Positions 4,453 to 10,389 of a stretch of 64,000 bases of DNA are shown piece after piece. The stretch is from contig JABJJO010000019.1 of the NCBI GenBank assembly GCA_018660825.1, positions 1-64,000 of the forward strand, written 5' to 3'. The translations under genes were made by a program, and so were the position numbers. Below the pieces are notes generated by a model, which saw only the letters and a program-made list of their open reading frames with translations, had not been told where the DNA came from and ran no database searches. The DNA is from Planctomycetaceae bacterium. Its GTDB lineage: Bacteria; Planctomycetota; Planctomycetia; Pirellulales; Pirellulaceae. Positions within the stretch are counted from its first letter, which is position 1. Each line of letters begins with the position of its first letter.

Positions 4453-4860
4453 CTAGAATGGAATGTCGTCCGCCGCCATCCCCACTAATTCCGGTTCGGG
4501 TTTGCTATTTCCATCAGCTATATCTGTCCCCGCCTTATTACCCACGAAGCTAAATTCTGTTCCACGGACTTTCAGTTTCGAAAAGTGCTTACCGTCCTTC
4601 TCCCAACGTTCTAGTTGAAGCGATCCCTCAATCAAAATGGGAGAACCTTTTTGGAAATATTGGGCAATTACCTCCGCTTTGCGATTCCAAAACGTAACGT
4701 CCACGAATTGAGTTACGTCAACCCATTCCCCATTATCCCCCGGACGCCGCTCGTTAACCGCGACACCCAAGTCGATTACGGAATGCCCTCCGCTTGTTGT
4801 TCGCAACTCCACGCCCCTTGTTAATCGACCCATAATTATTACTTTGTTAAAACTGCTCAT
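4453..4860 (-). CDS. ssb: Single-stranded DNA-binding protein
   Basis: 135 residues. It has the bacterial SSB OB-fold: N-terminal FNKVIIMGRLTRGVELR, central VDVTFWNRKAEVIAQYFQKG, and GSLQLERWEKDGK. The linker is short and the acidic tip DDIPF at the C-terminus recruits partner proteins. An excellent ribosome-binding site (AGGAGG, 7 nt before the ATG) lies on the minus strand. The gene stands apart from rpsF/rpsR, so it is either a second copy or a relocated one. Upstream at 4893-4923 is a copy of the bipartite promoter-like element also found before the ARPP-1 gene and the 99-residue ORF, suggesting stress-sigma control. Convergent with the beta-lactamase-family gene. Confidence 0.95.
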   Translation of the reverse strand: MSSFNKVIIMGRLTRGVELRTTSGGHSVIDLGVAVNERRPGDNGEWVDVTQFVDVTFWNRKAEVIAQYFQKGSPILIEGSLQLERWEKDGKHFSKLKVRGTEFSFVGNKAGTDIADGNSKPEPELVGMAADDIPF

Positions 4861-4892: not shown

Positions 4893-4923
4893 ACTTAAGA
4901 GATTGAGATGATCCAATTTCCGG
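4893..4923 (-). promoter_or_regulatory. Bipartite promoter-like element upstream of ssb
   Basis: Read on the minus strand this is CCGGAAATT, 12 nt, then TCTCTTAAGT, which points at ssb with about 32 nt to the start codon. The same two boxes with the same 12-nt spacer occur before the ARPP-1 gene (9057-9087) and, less exactly, before the ORF at 5098 (5001-5031). The ssb and ARPP-1 copies match over 18 contiguous bases (4887-4904 versus 9051-9068) and again in AATTTCCGG. A GGAA-type upstream box is typical of -35 elements read by ECF sigma factors. Confidence 0.6.
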
Positions 4924-5000
4924 ATTATTCCCTTAAGAAATTCAAAATACACGCGGGCTGTCACCACAACTGTCAATCGCCCGTTTTCCGTTCAATTTTT

Positions 5001-5031
5001 TCGGAAAAATACCCTTGCCGTTCTCTTAAGT
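5001..5031 (+). promoter_or_regulatory. Bipartite promoter-like element upstream of the 99-residue ORF
   Basis: Plus strand: TCGGAAAAA (5001-5009), 12 nt, then TCTCTTAAGT (5022-5031), ending 66 nt before the ATG at 5098. The downstream box is identical to those before ssb and the ARPP-1 gene; the upstream box differs at two of nine positions. It shares the ssb intergenic region but faces the other way, so the pair forms a divergent promoter region. Confidence 0.5.
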
Positions 5032-5097: not shown

Positions 5098-5397
5098 ATG
5101 AAAACGACCAAAACAGCCACCATACCTACGATCAGTGAAGGCTGCATCAGAGCGGTATCCGAAGCGGGGTTTCGTGAGAGCATGTCCAAATATGCAATTC
5201 ATGGGTATGAAATGCTAGACGCAGAGAATCTCGAAATTGGGATTTGGATCGATAGCGTAGCACGACATGTGTTCGGCAATAAAGATATCAAACTCTGCGA
5301 CGAATACCGTAACTATTTACAATTTGCTTGGGCCGCGCATGCCGTGATGCTCTATAAGGTGATATCCGCCCAAATCGAAGGAAATGCGTTGGAATAA
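5098..5397 (+). CDS. Small protein of unknown function (99 residues)
   Basis: I do not recognise a family. The product looks soluble and mainly helical, with no signal peptide, membrane segment or Cys pair. Features include GCIRAVSEAGFRESMSKYAI and a C-terminal NYLQFAWAAHAVMLYKVISA helix. The ATG lacks a strong Shine-Dalgarno sequence. Evidence that it is real is the copy of the shared promoter-like element 66 nt upstream, the lack of a competing gene on the other strand, and a fit between ssb and the sigma-factor gene (convergent, 40 nt apart). If real, it belongs to the same putative regulon as ssb and the ARPP-1/kinase/sigma series. Confidence 0.6.
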   Translation: MKTTKTATIPTISEGCIRAVSEAGFRESMSKYAIHGYEMLDAENLEIGIWIDSVARHVFGNKDIKLCDEYRNYLQFAWAAHAVMLYKVISAQIEGNALE

Positions 5398-5437: not shown

Positions 5438-6055
5438 TCAATTCCCCTCATCCCCCCGCGACACTTGCTGACGCAATAACTCGATTGCCGTTTGAAATCG
5501 ATCGTACGCTGTAGACAACGGTATGTCATATTCTCTACTTATCTCAGCAAACGTCATATCCAAAAGTAGATGTCCATTAACAATGCACTGCAAAGAGTCG
5601 TCCAGGGAGCCAAGTTTTGACATCACGAATTGCAACATTTCGTGATCAGCAGCGTAGTGGTCGTCAGGCAATTGGACAACATCCGGTACGTCCGGCATGA
5701 AATCGACACGTCGTTTTTTGAATTCATCTAGCATCGCCCAGCGAAAGTGGGTACACGCCGTGGCGAAAAAATGATGTCGATCTGCTATTTCGTCGTTACC
5801 CATCCTTACCTGCAACTTCTCGTACACCCCGTTGATCAACTCATCGGGATCTTCAATGCTAGAGTTCGGGAAAGTCGCGAGCACTCGGGCCGCAGTTTCC
5901 CGCAACGTTACAAGAACGGCTTTCCATAAATATTCCTGGTGAATCGACTCGCCCCTACCGGCATTTTGAATCAATAGCGTAATCGACCCGTAACCTGTTT
6001 TTCTAGCGGGACGGAGTTGGTTAATTACCGAATCAAATGGTTCCGATTGCGACAT
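5438..6055 (-). CDS. ECF-type RNA polymerase sigma factor (planctomycete Sigma70_ECF type)
   Basis: About 205 residues from ATG at 6055; the longer reading from TTG at 6061 would overlap the kinase stop. The ATG is preferred because AAGG sits 7 nt upstream and the kinase stop is 2 nt away (TGAGTATG). Region 2 lies around EYLWKAVLVTLRETAARVLA and DPDELINGVYEKL, with the FKKRRVDF segment after it. Region 4 carries the helix-turn-helix at MTFAEISREYDIPLSTAYDR, which reads the -35 box. The family (ECF-like, TIGR02999-type) is expanded in planctomycetes and often lies next to Ser/Thr kinase genes. Here it directly follows a kinase-macro fusion, so kinase control of the sigma factor is a reasonable inference. 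The bipartite elements nearby are candidate target promoters. Confidence 0.88.
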   Translation of the reverse strand: MSQSEPFDSVINQLRPARKTGYGSITLLIQNAGRGESIHQEYLWKAVLVTLRETAARVLATFPNSSIEDPDELINGVYEKLQVRMGNDEIADRHHFFATACTHFRWAMLDEFKKRRVDFMPDVPDVVQLPDDHYAADHEMLQFVMSKLGSLDDSLQCIVNGHLLLDMTFAEISREYDIPLSTAYDRFQTAIELLRQQVSRGDEGN

Positions 6056-6057
6056 AC

Positions 6058-7791
6058 TCAACCTTGCTCTGGGAGTAGAATAATTCGAATTTCTTGCAAC
6101 GGAGTCATACCTAATTCAAATTCCCTTGAAATATATTCAATCATGGTATGCAAACAAACCTCGGGGTCCATCCCCGCATTGCCGGTGCCCAGCAAGGGAA
6201 ACGCAATACTAGTGACTTCCAGTGATTGTGCGTGATGGAAACAATCACCTAGGATACTGCGAATCAAGTCCGGAGTGGGAATAAAACGCCTATTACCTTT
6301 GGCAGCGCCAAGATCGGGGATCGTGATCGCATGGAAAACGAACCGATGCGGCAACCTCCCCGCTCCCGACGGCATGACCCGCCCCAGCAAAACCGGCGCC
6401 AAGTGCCGTGTTGTCTCAAAATATTTATCGCCTGCCGATTCTCTAATTTTTCCGGCCACGCCGGCCGTCATTGTCAGTCTACCGTCATCGCTACTAACCA
6501 AAACCTCACAACCCTCGGCACTCTCAACAATATCACCCTCCAACAACACCAACTTCCGTGTGTCACCGAATCGTTGCACGCATTTCTCACCCCATAATGT
6601 ACCCGCGCGAGATTCACGCGGTGCCGACAAACCGGACTTCTTCTCCTGCGAGGGACTGAATTCCGAAGGCATCGCAAGACTGCAGGATACACTGGACGAC
6701 AAAAGCAGACCGCGATCCGAGTCATCACGGACAATTGTTTCGACTTCAACCTCTGGCAACTCGTTAAGGATTTCAGCAAAATTTGAAAACCTATCACGCG
6801 CCTGTTTGGCCATGCATCGTTCAATGATATCCGCCAAGTCCTTGTCCAAATTGGGATTTCGTGATCGCGGCGATTCCAATATTTCCATGCGATGTTTATA
6901 GACGACCTCGACAAAATCAACGCCCTCAAACGGCGGCGACCCAGTCAATAAATGATAAAACGTCGCGCCGAAACTATAGACATCATTCCGCAAGTCGACG
7001 ACCGCCGAATCAAAACCTTGTTCAGGTGACATGTAGTGTGGCGTGCCAAGCATTTGCCCCGATTTAGTCAACACGCGTCCGTTGAGAGGACGTTCCCCAT
7101 TGGGTAATGCTATAGCGAGCCCAAAGTCGAGCAACTTAACCGAATTATCCTCGGCTGCGACTATCAAATTTGCAGGCTTAATATCACGATGTACGATACC
7201 ACGCTCTGTCGCGGCAACCATCGCTTGGCATACTTGCCCCATCCATCGAATTCCGTTTTGGGCGGATTGGGGGTTCCCCTTGTTACTTGCGATTACATCA
7301 CTCAAATAACGACCGTCAATGTACTCCATCACAATTGCCGCTTCGGAGTGTAGATCATCTCCGTTGTCAAAAAAGGCGAGTTGCCGCACGATATGCTTTG
7401 ATTCCAGTTGTTGCAGCAACGTAGACTCGCGCACAAATCGTTCTAATGACTCGCCTGGTTTTATTATCTTTACAGCAACGTCAAGCTCATGCCGATCGTC
7501 ATTTGCAAGATAAACATGTGATGTCGCTCCCGCGCCAATTTCACGAACGCACCGGTAATGCCTCGGAATCCAATCTGGAAAACTATATGACTTGTGCAAA
7601 GCTCTTAGACGCGCAATAAACGCCGCCAAGTTCGACATTTCCACTGGCGGACGGGAACTTTTAGCGTTATGTGCATCGATCAATAATTCAATATCATCAT
7701 TCGTCACCAACGCTAAATCACCAAAAATCCGAACGATCTCCAACATCAACGGTTCAATATCATCCTCGATATTTTTTGGCGTTCCCTGCAT
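6058..7791 (-). CDS. Ser/Thr protein kinase fused to a C-terminal macro domain
   Basis: 577 residues. Residues 1-75 are helical and unassigned. A complete Hanks-type kinase covers about 80-345: glycine loop GAGATSHVY (86-94), catalytic Lys108 in VAVKII, HRDIKPAN (201-208), DFG (222-224), and GTPHYMSPEQG. A low-complexity linker (350-410) leads to a macro domain at about 413-577, shown by LLEGDIVESAEGCEVLVSSDD, TAGVAGKIRESAG and SIAFPLLGTGNAG. Macro domains bind ADP-ribose or related nucleotides; here the usual NAAN is SSDD, so binding may be altered. No membrane segment, so it should be cytosolic. No Shine-Dalgarno precedes the ATG, while TACAAT at 7798-7803 (minus) ends six bases before it, allowing a leaderless transcript. 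It lies 143 nt downstream of the ARPP-1 gene and 2 nt upstream of the sigma factor. Confidence 0.9.
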   Translation of the reverse strand: MQGTPKNIEDDIEPLMLEIVRIFGDLALVTNDDIELLIDAHNAKSSRPPVEMSNLAAFIARLRALHKSYSFPDWIPRHYRCVREIGAGATSHVYLANDDRHELDVAVKIIKPGESLERFVRESTLLQQLESKHIVRQLAFFDNGDDLHSEAAIVMEYIDGRYLSDVIASNKGNPQSAQNGIRWMGQVCQAMVAATERGIVHRDIKPANLIVAAEDNSVKLLDFGLAIALPNGERPLNGRVLTKSGQMLGTPHYMSPEQGFDSAVVDLRNDVYSFGATFYHLLTGSPPFEGVDFVEVVYKHRMEILESPRSRNPNLDKDLADIIERCMAKQARDRFSNFAEILNELPEVEVETIVRDDSDRGLLLSSSVSCSLAMPSEFSPSQEKKSGLSAPRESRAGTLWGEKCVQRFGDTRKLVLLEGDIVESAEGCEVLVSSDDGRLTMTAGVAGKIRESAGDKYFETTRHLAPVLLGRVMPSGAGRLPHRFVFHAITIPDLGAAKGNRRFIPTPDLIRSILGDCFHHAQSLEVTSIAFPLLGTGNAGMDPEVCLHTMIEYISREFELGMTPLQEIRIILLPEQG

Positions 7792-7934
7792 GCGACCATT
7801 GTAACATACTATCCAAATTATTCGGGCACTTTTGCCATATCCCTGACACTCGCACAGCGAAACAAGTCCCGGTTTACATATCCGCTCGCCTTACAATATC
7901 TGACATGCGACGACTACCACGTAAGGAACAGGCC

Positions 7935-8933
7935 CTAAACAACAGCGCTTAAATGCACTAACCGCCCATCCAGACGCAATTGGGATCCGATCAAGCTGCC
8001 TTCGTCTCCGCGGTATTCTTCGCCAGCCGACACAGCGACCACTCGTTCCCAGCTCAATTTACTGAGGCGATCAAGAGCCCGCAGAATTTGTTGTTCTTTA
8101 ACTCTGCTGGGCGTCGACTGCTCACCTTTTTTGTCAAGTTGCCGCCTCTGCGCTTTACCCATCGTTTCAAGCACGCAGCCACGCATTACTCGATCCCATG
8201 CCTTTTTACACAACTTCTTCTTGGCAAACATTTCAATCGTTTGAACATCGCCATTAATCGCGATGATCCATCCCCGCGCATTCTGCGGATATATAAAAGT
8301 CTTTAGCGCGCGTTCAATCAGCCCCCGTTTCGACTCAAACACATCTTCCATTGAATTTGTATGACTTGATGCGGCGTGGGAATACTGCATGGTTTCCACC
8401 TTTTCCCATACCGCTCCCTGCGACGCATGGTGTACAGCGGCCTGTTCGCGTGCCATGGAGCCGGGTTCTTCGGACTGACTGGCCTGTTGTTGAAGCATAT
8501 AGGCTTCCCGCGCCTCTCGTTTACTCTCCTTCAGGATTTTACGCATCTCTGGAGTGGCGGCATTATTAGACGTTGAAAAAGCCGCTGATTTGCGGGCCCA
8601 GCGACCCTGCTCCACGCAGGATACAGGAATTTCCGCGAAGGATTTGGGCGCAATCAGGACGGTCGAATTACATATTCGATTCTGCTTTGCACCGACAAGC
8701 TGGTCGCCTTCCACAAACAAAACGTTGCACGGGCTGTTATTGGTCACGCATAGGGTTGGAACACTGCCCGCATCGCTAACTTCTTTCACATTAACCAAGC
8801 CCTCGTCAATCATTTCTAGCCCCGATTTTACGACCGTCTTCAATCCAATCTTTAAATATAATGGAAACACAGACAATCCGTCTGATTCAATGCGTTTGCC
8901 AATAGTCGTGGTTGGTAATTTGATATTATTCAT
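7935..8933 (-). CDS. ARPP-1 family (DUF6569-like) protein
   Basis: 332 residues from ATG at 8933, chosen because AGAGGTG lies 7 nt upstream and the protein then begins MNNIKLPTTTIG; the open frame extends to 9017 without a good start. The hallmark stretches are VEGDQLVGAKQNRI and the following IPVSCVEQGRW, which I recognise from the ARPP-1 family. That family is named for its association with ADP-ribosylglycohydrolase and rhodanese/phosphatase-type proteins; its biochemistry is not established to my knowledge. No signal peptide or TM segment. The second half has a charged helical region (KILKESKREAREAYMLQQQ). It heads a same-strand series with the kinase-macro and sigma-factor genes, and its 5' region holds the best-conserved copy of the bipartite promoter-like element, about 123 nt from the start codon. 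Confidence 0.8.
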   Translation of the reverse strand: MNNIKLPTTTIGKRIESDGLSVFPLYLKIGLKTVVKSGLEMIDEGLVNVKEVSDAGSVPTLCVTNNSPCNVLFVEGDQLVGAKQNRICNSTVLIAPKSFAEIPVSCVEQGRWARKSAAFSTSNNAATPEMRKILKESKREAREAYMLQQQASQSEEPGSMAREQAAVHHASQGAVWEKVETMQYSHAASSHTNSMEDVFESKRGLIERALKTFIYPQNARGWIIAINGDVQTIEMFAKKKLCKKAWDRVMRGCVLETMGKAQRRQLDKKGEQSTPSRVKEQQILRALDRLSKLSWERVVAVSAGEEYRGDEGSLIGSQLRLDGRLVHLSAVV

Positions 8934-9056
8934 CGCGTAACACCTCTTGCAAGTAACTAATTTAAGGATTGTTAACTGTTGATGAGCTTGCTTCTTCCGC
9001 ACCACAATTAACGACATTTTTGATGGCAGGCCTTAGACAAAAGTACCGCCTTCACT

Positions 9057-9087
9057 ACTTAAGAGATTTGCAAGATCGAATTTCCGG
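9057..9087 (-). promoter_or_regulatory. Bipartite promoter-like element upstream of the ARPP-1/kinase/sigma series
   Basis: Minus strand: CCGGAAATT, 12 nt, TCTCTTAAGT. Together with flanking bases it matches the ssb copy at 28 or more of 37 positions (9051-9087 versus 4887-4923), including 18 contiguous identities. The leader to the ARPP-1 start is about 123 nt, longer than the leader for ssb. If this is the target of the sigma factor encoded in the same series, the locus is autoregulated. Confidence 0.6.
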
Positions 9088-9169
9088 TACAAAATATTTT
9101 TTTTGCGAAATTAGTTTTCGATATAATAAATACCACCTAAAAACTCGCATACCGTCGCAAAGCACAAAA

Positions 9170-9364
9170 ATGAGCACCCAACAAATCCGCGATCAAAAGG
9201 GGCACCTGCTCGGAACGATATCTAGCAGTCCTAATAATCAACAAAATGCTCGTGATAGCCATGGGCGTTTCCTCGGGTCGTATGACCCGCATACCAATGT
9301 CACTCGGGACGCCTCCGGTCGTGCCATCGGTACCGGTAATTCTCTCGCATCACTGATTCGATAG
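9170..9364 (+). CDS. Small DxxGRxxG repeat protein (64 residues)
   Basis: Translated from ATG at 9170; the reading frame is open further upstream, but that part covers the promoter-like element and lacks a sensible start. The 64 residues contain three copies of a short hairpin-like motif: RDQKGHLLGTI, RDSHGRFLGSY and RDASGRAIGTG. The general form is Asp-x-x-Gly-[Arg/His]-x-x-Gly. The last two are separated by DPHTNVT. Small proteins with this repeat occur in many bacteria, but I know of no assigned function. It is divergent from the ARPP-1 gene and 86 nt upstream of the phosphoesterase gene on the same strand. A TATAAT-like box is at 9122-9127. Confidence 0.65.
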   Translation: MSTQQIRDQKGHLLGTISSSPNNQQNARDSHGRFLGSYDPHTNVTRDASGRAIGTGNSLASLIR

Positions 9365-9450: not shown

Positions 9451-10389
9451 ATGTACGACATCATTGGCGATATCCACGGTCACGCCCAACCCCTCGAAGC
9501 TCTATTAGAAACGCTCGGATATACCAAACACGACGAAGTGTACTCGCACCCTGAAAACCGCCAGGTGATCTTCCTTGGCGATTTTATAGATCGCGGGCCC
9601 CACATACTCGAAACGCTAATCATAGCAAAATCCATGGTCGAATCAGGTACAGCCCTCGTCGTAATGGGCAACCATGAGTTCAACGCGTTGGCCTATCACA
9701 CCAAACACCCGACCGACGATCGGTTTCTCCGCGCCCACACCGAGAAGAACCAAAAACAACACCAAGCAACGCTTGATGCTCTAAATGAATCACAACTCGC
9801 GGACTACCTAACTTGGTTTGCTACGCTTCCGACACACCTTGACTTGGGAAGTCTAAGAATCGTACACGCCTGCTGGGACCAGACTCAACTAGACCTCATC
9901 ACACACATCTTCGCTGACCATGATAGCTTCAACGCTTCCTTGCTCACGGCAGCTAGTAGTCCCGGCGACCCATTATTCAACGCTATAGAAACGGTTTTGA
10001 AGGGACCGGAGGCACCACTGCCAGTGGGACACTCATACCAAGACAAAGAAGGTAACGTACGCTACCGCATCCGTATCAAATGGTATGAACCGTTTAACGG
10101 CCAAACGATCGCGCAATACATGATGCCCCCCACAACACCACCAGACCCCAACCTCAACAGACCATTAGTATTACCGTCTCATGCCAAACCGCAAGGCTAT
10201 CCAGCGACAGATCCCCCCGTGTTTGTGGGGCATTATTGGATGCCCAGCAAGTCCCCCGCACCGCTAACGCCGAACGTCACCTGCGTTGATTACAGCGTCG
10301 CCAAGCAGGGACTGCTCGTCGCATATCGATACAACGGCGAAAGCATCCTCGACGCAACCAACTATGTAGCGGTTCCCGCGCAAGCTTGA
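9451..10389 (+). CDS. Calcineurin-like metallophosphoesterase (Ser/Thr phosphatase / ApaH-PrpE type)
   Basis: 312 residues. The dinuclear-metal motifs are complete: GDIHG with Asp7 and His9, GDFIDRG with Asp44 and Asp47, GNHE with Asn74 and His75, and later histidines in VHACWD and VGHYWM. This arrangement is shared by PPP-type protein phosphatases and symmetric or asymmetric diadenosine-polyphosphate hydrolases. No signal peptide, so it is cytosolic. AGAGGA lies just upstream of the ATG. Its position beside a Ser/Thr kinase-macro locus makes two roles plausible: reversing the kinase, or hydrolysing a nucleotide signal. The sequence alone does not choose between them. Confidence 0.9.
   Translation: MYDIIGDIHGHAQPLEALLETLGYTKHDEVYSHPENRQVIFLGDFIDRGPHILETLIIAKSMVESGTALVVMGNHEFNALAYHTKHPTDDRFLRAHTEKNQKQHQATLDALNESQLADYLTWFATLPTHLDLGSLRIVHACWDQTQLDLITHIFADHDSFNASLLTAASSPGDPLFNAIETVLKGPEAPLPVGHSYQDKEGNVRYRIRIKWYEPFNGQTIAQYMMPPTTPPDPNLNRPLVLPSHAKPQGYPATDPPVFVGHYWMPSKSPAPLTPNVTCVDYSVAKQGLLVAYRYNGESILDATNYVAVPAQA

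Follow-up and report, generated by a model that had tools for sequence, protein, structure and literature searches.

The locus near the start of contig JABJJO010000019.1 raises the question of whether a protein kinase fused to a macro domain and an extracytoplasmic function (ECF) sigma factor form one regulatory system with an ARPP-1 family protein and a single-stranded-DNA-binding protein (SSB). The contig comes from a Planctomycetaceae bacterium (assembly GCA_018660825.1; 4.94 Mb, 221 contigs), and we analyzed its positions 1 to 64,000, here called the window. A preliminary description had placed three same-strand genes at this locus, encoding ARPP-1, the kinase-macro protein, and the sigma factor, and Pfam profiles over their cutoffs located all three there. 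The genes lie on the minus strand in the transcription order ARPP-1 (332 amino acids [aa]; 7935 to 8933), the Hanks kinase with a C-terminal macro domain that we call KM (577 aa; 6058 to 7791), a divergent ECF sigma factor (5438 to 6061), and a second SSB, SSB2 (4453 to 4860). A 99-aa open reading frame (ORF) of unassigned function (5098 to 5397) lies on the plus strand between SSB2 and the sigma gene. Sequence comparison identified these genes and revealed a conserved cassette, a duplicated SSB, and a shared promoter. The conserved unit is larger than had been described, consisting of KM, the sigma factor, and ssb, with a second SSB that is specific to the cassette.

We followed the cassette in nine genomes of the genus, all from uncultured planctomycetes (G000 to G008, G000 being the window genome). 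KM, sigma, and ssb are intact in seven of them (G000, G001, G002, G005, G006, G007, and G008), and the KM proteins of the relatives are 42 to 79% identical to that of the window. G003 (completeness, 69%) seems to have its contig end within the sigma gene, immediately upstream of the SSB gene, and retains the SSB promoter. ARPP-1 was found in six of the nine genomes and shares a contig with KM in four, adjoining it in the window and lying 8 to 9 kb away in the other three. In those three (G002, G006, and G008), ARPP-1 and KM share a strand, with ARPP-1 downstream, past DUF1549/DUF1553, DUF1501, and an uncharacterized gene; the window holds the same modules in a different order. The contigs of G001 and G005 break inside the KM-to-ARPP-1 block, and that of G007 ends at KM, so the missing ARPP-1 in G007 is uninformative.

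SSB2 matches PF00436 at 90 bits, and its acidic tip, DDIPF, is retained in all six aligned cassette SSBs. Two SSB copies are present in G000, G001, G002, G005, and G006, three in G007 and G008, and one in G003 and G004, the sole SSB of G003 being the cassette copy. Each of six other genomes of the family has a single copy; multiple SSBs occur, among the 15 genomes searched, only in the seven with an intact cassette. The third copies lie outside the cassette (G007:C300:2081-2383 and G008:C1:7828-8136). The ssb gene, which had been regarded as a bystander that merely shares a promoter element, is instead the most constant partner of KM and sigma in the genus.

That promoter-like element is real, and the part first noticed is the −10 half of a longer site. 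The assembly contains four exact copies of TCTCTTAAGTRGT, three of them in the window, and all four precede ORFs: ssb, ARPP-1, the 99-aa ORF at 5098, and, on a different contig, a zinc-ribbon-like ORF of 97 aa. The −35 half lies 18 bases upstream and reads CCGG in three of the four copies and TCGG before the 99-aa ORF. Together they form a bipartite ECF-type promoter with CCGG and CTCTTA halves spaced by 17 to 19 bases (mostly 18) and the consensus TTCCGGA(A/C)-about N16-CTCTTA(A/C). Motif and model scans place the promoter of ssb2 at 4894 to 4927 and that of ARPP-1 at 9058 to 9091, both on the minus strand, and the TCGG variant before the 99-aa ORF at 4997 to 5030 on the plus strand.

To score these sites, a two-block model trained solely on eight ssb2 promoters was used to scan the 300 bases upstream of genes. 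In leave-one-out scoring, the ssb2 promoters reached 17.7 to 26.8. The ARPP-1 upstream regions scored 19.7 (in the window), 23.9, 20.0, 20.0, and 21.2 in five of six genomes, values reached by 0 to 1 of 3000 shuffles. The 99-aa ORF, which is 84% identical in G007 and has the same promoter there, scored 22.6 in both genomes. Among the control genes, 5 of 127 scored 17 or more (the 99-aa ORF twice, the zinc-ribbon-like ORF once, and a 131- to 136-aa gene beside ARPP-1 twice), and the best of the rest scored 14.7. These five are candidate regulon members. Controls on the stretches L048 and L006 to L010 are not neutral, since those stretches had been chosen for motif-like sites; the other loci were chosen around the cassette. 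Across the fetched stretches, genus loci (187,311 bases) gave 21 matches of 17 or more, and other genera (451,846 bases) gave 1; the 21 include seven of the eight training sites and two second-register repeats of a site already counted.

Genome-wide searches depended on the pattern used. With up to three mismatches, CGGAAA-N14-TCTCTTAAGTRGT was found 8 times versus 1 for the reversed control in G000, 4 versus 2 in G007, 1 versus 4 in G003, and 0 versus 0 in G004. The looser TCCGGA-N15-17-CTCTTA was unspecific, matching 10 of 13 genomes. A pattern for the clade-2 promoter matched one of nine genomes; it had a fixed 4-base gap, where that clade has 5 bases by eye, so absence is not implied.

The promoter also marks a gene outside the cassette. 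A small membrane-anchored protein of 145 to 239 aa with an N-terminal membrane segment is encoded in eight of the nine genus genomes, in G000 at positions 1501 to 1938 of locus L192 (contig C202). All eight copies, this one included, have the promoter upstream, with scores of 15.4 to 24.9. None of the 19 homologues in other genera of the family (19 of 27 genomes have one) has it; their best score was 9.0, with starts, uncertain in several, taken from the longest ORF plus 90 bases inside, so that deeper sites in over-extended ORFs would be missed. The promoter is therefore confined, as far as tested, to the cassette-bearing genus. By eye, the C-terminal LTxxQ-like helical repeat of the membrane protein resembles CpxP/Spy; no Pfam family scored over its cutoff. 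The shared promoters suggest that the cassette genes act as one stress response, and we consider the cassette and its promoter very probably functional.

The KM protein combines a kinase domain at residues 79 to 343 (150.5 bits) with a macro domain at residues 436 to 550 (PF01661, 52.2 bits versus a cutoff of 22). The catalytic K, E, HRD, and DFG residues are invariant in all seven genus KM proteins. The most hydrophobic 19-residue stretch is mild in each of the 19 KM proteins examined, with a best mean of 1.48, and we read KM as soluble because none has a strongly hydrophobic segment. Upstream of KM in loci L070, L071, and L072, there is a common stretch different from the cassette promoter, approximately TATCsTAACACACTTT by eye, which is possibly KM's own control site.

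The macro half of KM (residues 408 to 577, encoded at 6061 to 6570 on the minus strand) was modeled from seven sequences with a predicted local distance difference test (pLDDT) score of 72. Its best match in the PDB is macro domain 2 of PARP9 (Z score, 16.3; root mean square deviation, 2.7; 152 residues aligned). Reader-type and hydrolase-type macro domains fell within 1 Z of each other in this search, which did not separate readers from erasers. GDI/GDL and PLLG(T/S)G motifs are retained in the genus. The Asp of the GD motif, which we take to be the adenine-site residue, is present in all seven genus KM proteins and in 9 of 12 elsewhere. We likewise take NAAN and GGGVD to be the usual loops of macro domains and MacroD-type hydrolases. 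The GGGVD catalytic loop reads GVAG, GTAK, or GTAR in all seven, and the MacroD-type hydrolase motif is absent. In place of NAAN, loop 1 reads SSDD, CDD, SSED, SSDT, or SSTD across all 19 KM proteins, a change that points to a distinct macro subtype. The alteration of NAAN together with the loss of GGGVD favors reading the KM macro domain as a reader rather than an eraser.

The sigma factor is called divergent because it matches PF07638 at only 32.9 bits (cutoff, 21.1). Against NCBIfam TIGR02999 it scored 42.8 bits, below the curated cutoff of 126.15, which leaves it outside that subfamily. The listed start codon is TTG, with an ATG downstream in the same frame at 6055. Pairs of Hanks kinase and ECF sigma genes are known, including EcfK-PknS and EcfP-PknT, in groups ECF43, ECF59, and the former ECF60, as set out in two reports (PMC8103513, PMC13147305), and the cassette resembles them in having the two genes side by side: KM adjoins intact sigma in all seven intact genus loci (the window and six relatives). 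As described there, ECF43-like factors have an adjacent kinase and also replace the acidic motif of region 2.2 with uncharged residues and a phosphorylatable Ser/Thr (PMC13147305, PMC8103513). The cassette sigma factors have the adjacent kinase and lack the replacement. At the position of the phospho-switch Thr of EcfP and EcfK, with the motif placed by eye, the seven genus factors have D, D, D, N, H, D, and D, unlike EcfK and EcfP themselves, which indicates that the cassette sigma does not use that region 2.2 switch. It could possibly be phosphorylated at other sites, as EcfK is phosphorylated outside the switch position too (PMC13147305). PknS is described in the same source as a transmembrane kinase, whereas KM is predicted to be soluble and carries a macro domain.

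The ARPP-1 protein matches PF20208 at 247.9 bits (cutoff, 27); its 332 aa are counted from the ATG at 8933, and a further in-frame ATG lies at 9017. Residues C106, C242, Q84, and Q172 are invariant in 13 aligned of 19 ARPP-1 genes, in an alignment that treated two pieces of G021 as one and omitted five divergent genes and that of G002, which a contig end truncates. A single-sequence structure model was poor (pLDDT, 39). ARPP proteins have been described as having absolutely conserved Cys and Gln residues, with positions unstated, and as partners of ADP-ribosylglycohydrolase (ARG), HIRAN, WYL, and polysaccharide-deacetylase proteins; their role is predicted, with no assay in the section that describes them (PMC9503650). 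The literature connection of ARPP-1 to ADP-ribose-processing systems, cited in the preliminary description, is borne out by that section. The cassette resembles those ARG-centered systems in having ARPP-1, a nearby macro domain, and a calcineurin-like phosphoesterase gene (9451 to 10389, near ARPP-1); it differs from them in that no ARG was called in the window and in having kinase-sigma control rather than a Nudix or WYL repressor (PMC9503650). No ARG, NADAR, Nudix, WYL, HIRAN, or rhodanese-phosphatase gene was called among the 46 window ORFs of at least 90 aa, one edge ORF being unscanned; ssb lies about 4.4 kb from the contig start, and the search for an ADP-ribosylglycohydrolase did not extend to the rest of the genome. 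HIRAN is presented as a partner that binds DNA 3′ ends, and the authors draw an analogy to SRAP (PMC9503650), which would make an SSB a sensible partner for ARPP-1.

Among the neighbors of ARPP-1, a 64-aa glycine-repeat ORF (9170 to 9364, plus strand) is divergent from it and is conserved beside it in five relatives; the window scan found no cassette-promoter site upstream of this ORF. A family of 131- to 136-aa proteins is also encoded beside ARPP-1 (L030:3909-4319, L069:13831-14241, and L075:65-460). In two of these three genes, a cassette-promoter site scoring at least 17 lies within 300 bases upstream, and a strong site precedes the third at a greater distance; the two scanned with Pfam gave no match. 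A phage or defense origin was rejected for want of support, ARPP-1 relatives not having been found in viral contigs. PADLOC matched only the kinase domain, with general kinase models such as PD-T4-6, and gave one weak match to sigma. Farther along the window (13921 to 56000) are numerous DUF1501, DUF1549, and DUF1553 genes and sulfatases, typical of planctomycetes.

How far does the cassette extend beyond the genus? Among 397 genomes of the class, strong macro matches (E ≤ 2.7e-27) numbered at least 12 in at least 11 genomes, and all 12 are kinase-macro fusions. Eleven is a lower bound, as up to nine candidates were scored per genome; four of the 11 belong to one genus, g53. The next matches listed (E ≥ 1e-17) are open frames of about 140 to 340 residues, except for one of 602 residues that has no kinase domain. 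The 12 fusions have the domain order of the genus KM proteins and a similarly altered macro loop. Unlike the genus KM genes, the 12 lack SSB2 and ARPP-1 within the fetched stretches (6 to 18 kb), and only one has an ECF sigma factor there that our own profile recognizes. ARPP-1 is present in 4 of 11 KM genomes versus 84 of 383 others (Fisher P = 0.27, two draws of 397 genomes being taken as the same). These fusions indicate that kinase-macro is a wider planctomycete architecture and that its wiring to sigma, SSB2, and ARPP-1 is seen in this genus only. The cassette proposed in the preliminary description is accordingly supported within the genus, where it is conserved and shares a promoter, but not as a general system; the ADP-ribose ligand, the phosphorylation of sigma, and the induction by DNA damage suggested there are predictions.

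Macro fusions near ECF sigma genes are also found in EACC2-caspase conflict systems, some of which have macro C termini (PMC8195603). In those systems the macro domain is fused to caspase or EACC2, and no kinase-macro fusion, SSB, or ARPP is described in the part of that report that treats them. The main text of a survey of planctomycete kinases names no macro domain, and its supplementary domain table may list the fusion (PMC11032199). In a literature search that was not exhaustive, we found no description of the combination of KM, sigma, SSB, and ARPP-1.

We propose that KM and the sigma factor work in the cytosol as a switch for a single signal. An ADP-ribose-type ligand, whether free ADP-ribose or ADP-ribosylated DNA or protein, would bind to the macro domain and thereby alter the activity of the fused kinase. 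The kinase would activate the neighboring sigma factor, directly or via a partner, and sigma would read the TTCCGGA(A/C)-CTCTTA(A/C) promoter and turn on a small regulon comprising a few short ORFs together with SSB2, ARPP-1, and the small protein anchored in the membrane. In this scheme, the role of SSB2 would be to cover single-stranded DNA, and damage to ribose or of the abasic sugar type would be the target of ARPP-1. We give this ligand-gated path from KM through sigma to the SSB2/ARPP-1 regulon about an even chance overall.

Several observations weigh against the proposed switch. The ARPP-1 upstream region of G001 scored only 7.0, a value matched by 753 of 3000 shuffles, and the looser promoter pattern occurs outside the genus at six sites in two of four genomes, four inside ORFs and two before ORFs. 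The NAAN-type loop is SSDD or CDD in all seven genus KM proteins, and the adenine-site Asp is missing from 3 of the 12 outside the genus. KM is a wider planctomycete family whose association with ARPP-1 is undetectable outside the genus. The promoter is missing upstream of KM in all six cases tested (maximum, 7.6; KM of G007 was left unscored because its contig ends there), which argues against general autoregulation. In G004, the promoter precedes the gene for the membrane protein (score, 23.2), yet KM, ARPP-1, and a second SSB were not detected. These last two observations would be expected if the promoter belonged to another genus-specific sigma factor and KM and sigma merely neighbored some of its targets. 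The G004 genome is incomplete, however (89%; it was not searched for sigma itself), so that either the cassette lies in its missing part or another sigma reads the promoter. The promoter and the cassette have the same range as far as tested, the genus, and two of the best-conserved targets lie inside the cassette block. We regard a separate sigma factor as unlikely, and the cassette sigma probably reads the shared promoter.

The residues at the phospho-switch position bear on the next step. None of the seven sigma factors has Ser or Thr there, and five already have the acidic Asp, which, like the rarity of sigma near KM outside the genus, also counts against control of sigma by the kinase. KM and sigma might instead be cotranscribed, with the kinase acting on SSB2, ARPP-1, or elsewhere and sigma set by its level or by a partner. 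Against this, sigma adjoins KM at every intact genus locus, and published kinases of this type phosphorylate the neighboring ECF sigma factor, at other positions too (PMC13147305). We find this arrangement improbable, and the balance leans toward control of sigma by the KM kinase. An ordinary lineage-specific neighborhood, in which close relatives share gene order through descent rather than because the cassette works as a single system, would fit a linkage limited to one genus as far as tested and the DUF1549/DUF1501 genes that travel in the same block. We consider it very unlikely, since the modules stay linked although KM has diverged and the block is rearranged, and since the promoter is retained at the membrane-protein gene on another contig.

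For the proposed switch, sensing of an ADP-ribose-type ligand by the macro domain is predicted with evenly balanced chances, and protection or repair of single-stranded DNA by the outputs is possible but less likely than not. A wider scheme is doubtful as a whole: a full transcriptional program answering damage to single-stranded DNA by ADP-ribosylation or of the abasic type, in which the macro domain of the soluble kinase reads ADP-ribose (free or on DNA), a dedicated sigma acts without the region 2.2 switch, and the regulon supplies SSB2 along with ARPP-1, the latter capturing or repairing the damaged sugar. If true, this scheme would do for ADP-ribose-type damage what SOS does elsewhere, through a kinase-sigma pair. 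The pairing of kinase and ECF sigma is itself already known; the wiring of a kinase-macro protein to sigma, SSB2, and ARPP-1 is a variant seen in this genus. To our knowledge, few of the signals to which soluble kinase-sigma pairs respond have been identified. This locus offers a candidate class of signal through the macro domain, along with a candidate promoter and a short list of outputs, a second SSB among them, and the chain from ligand through kinase, sigma, and promoter to SSB2 and ARPP-1 is thus open to stepwise testing in a heterologous host.

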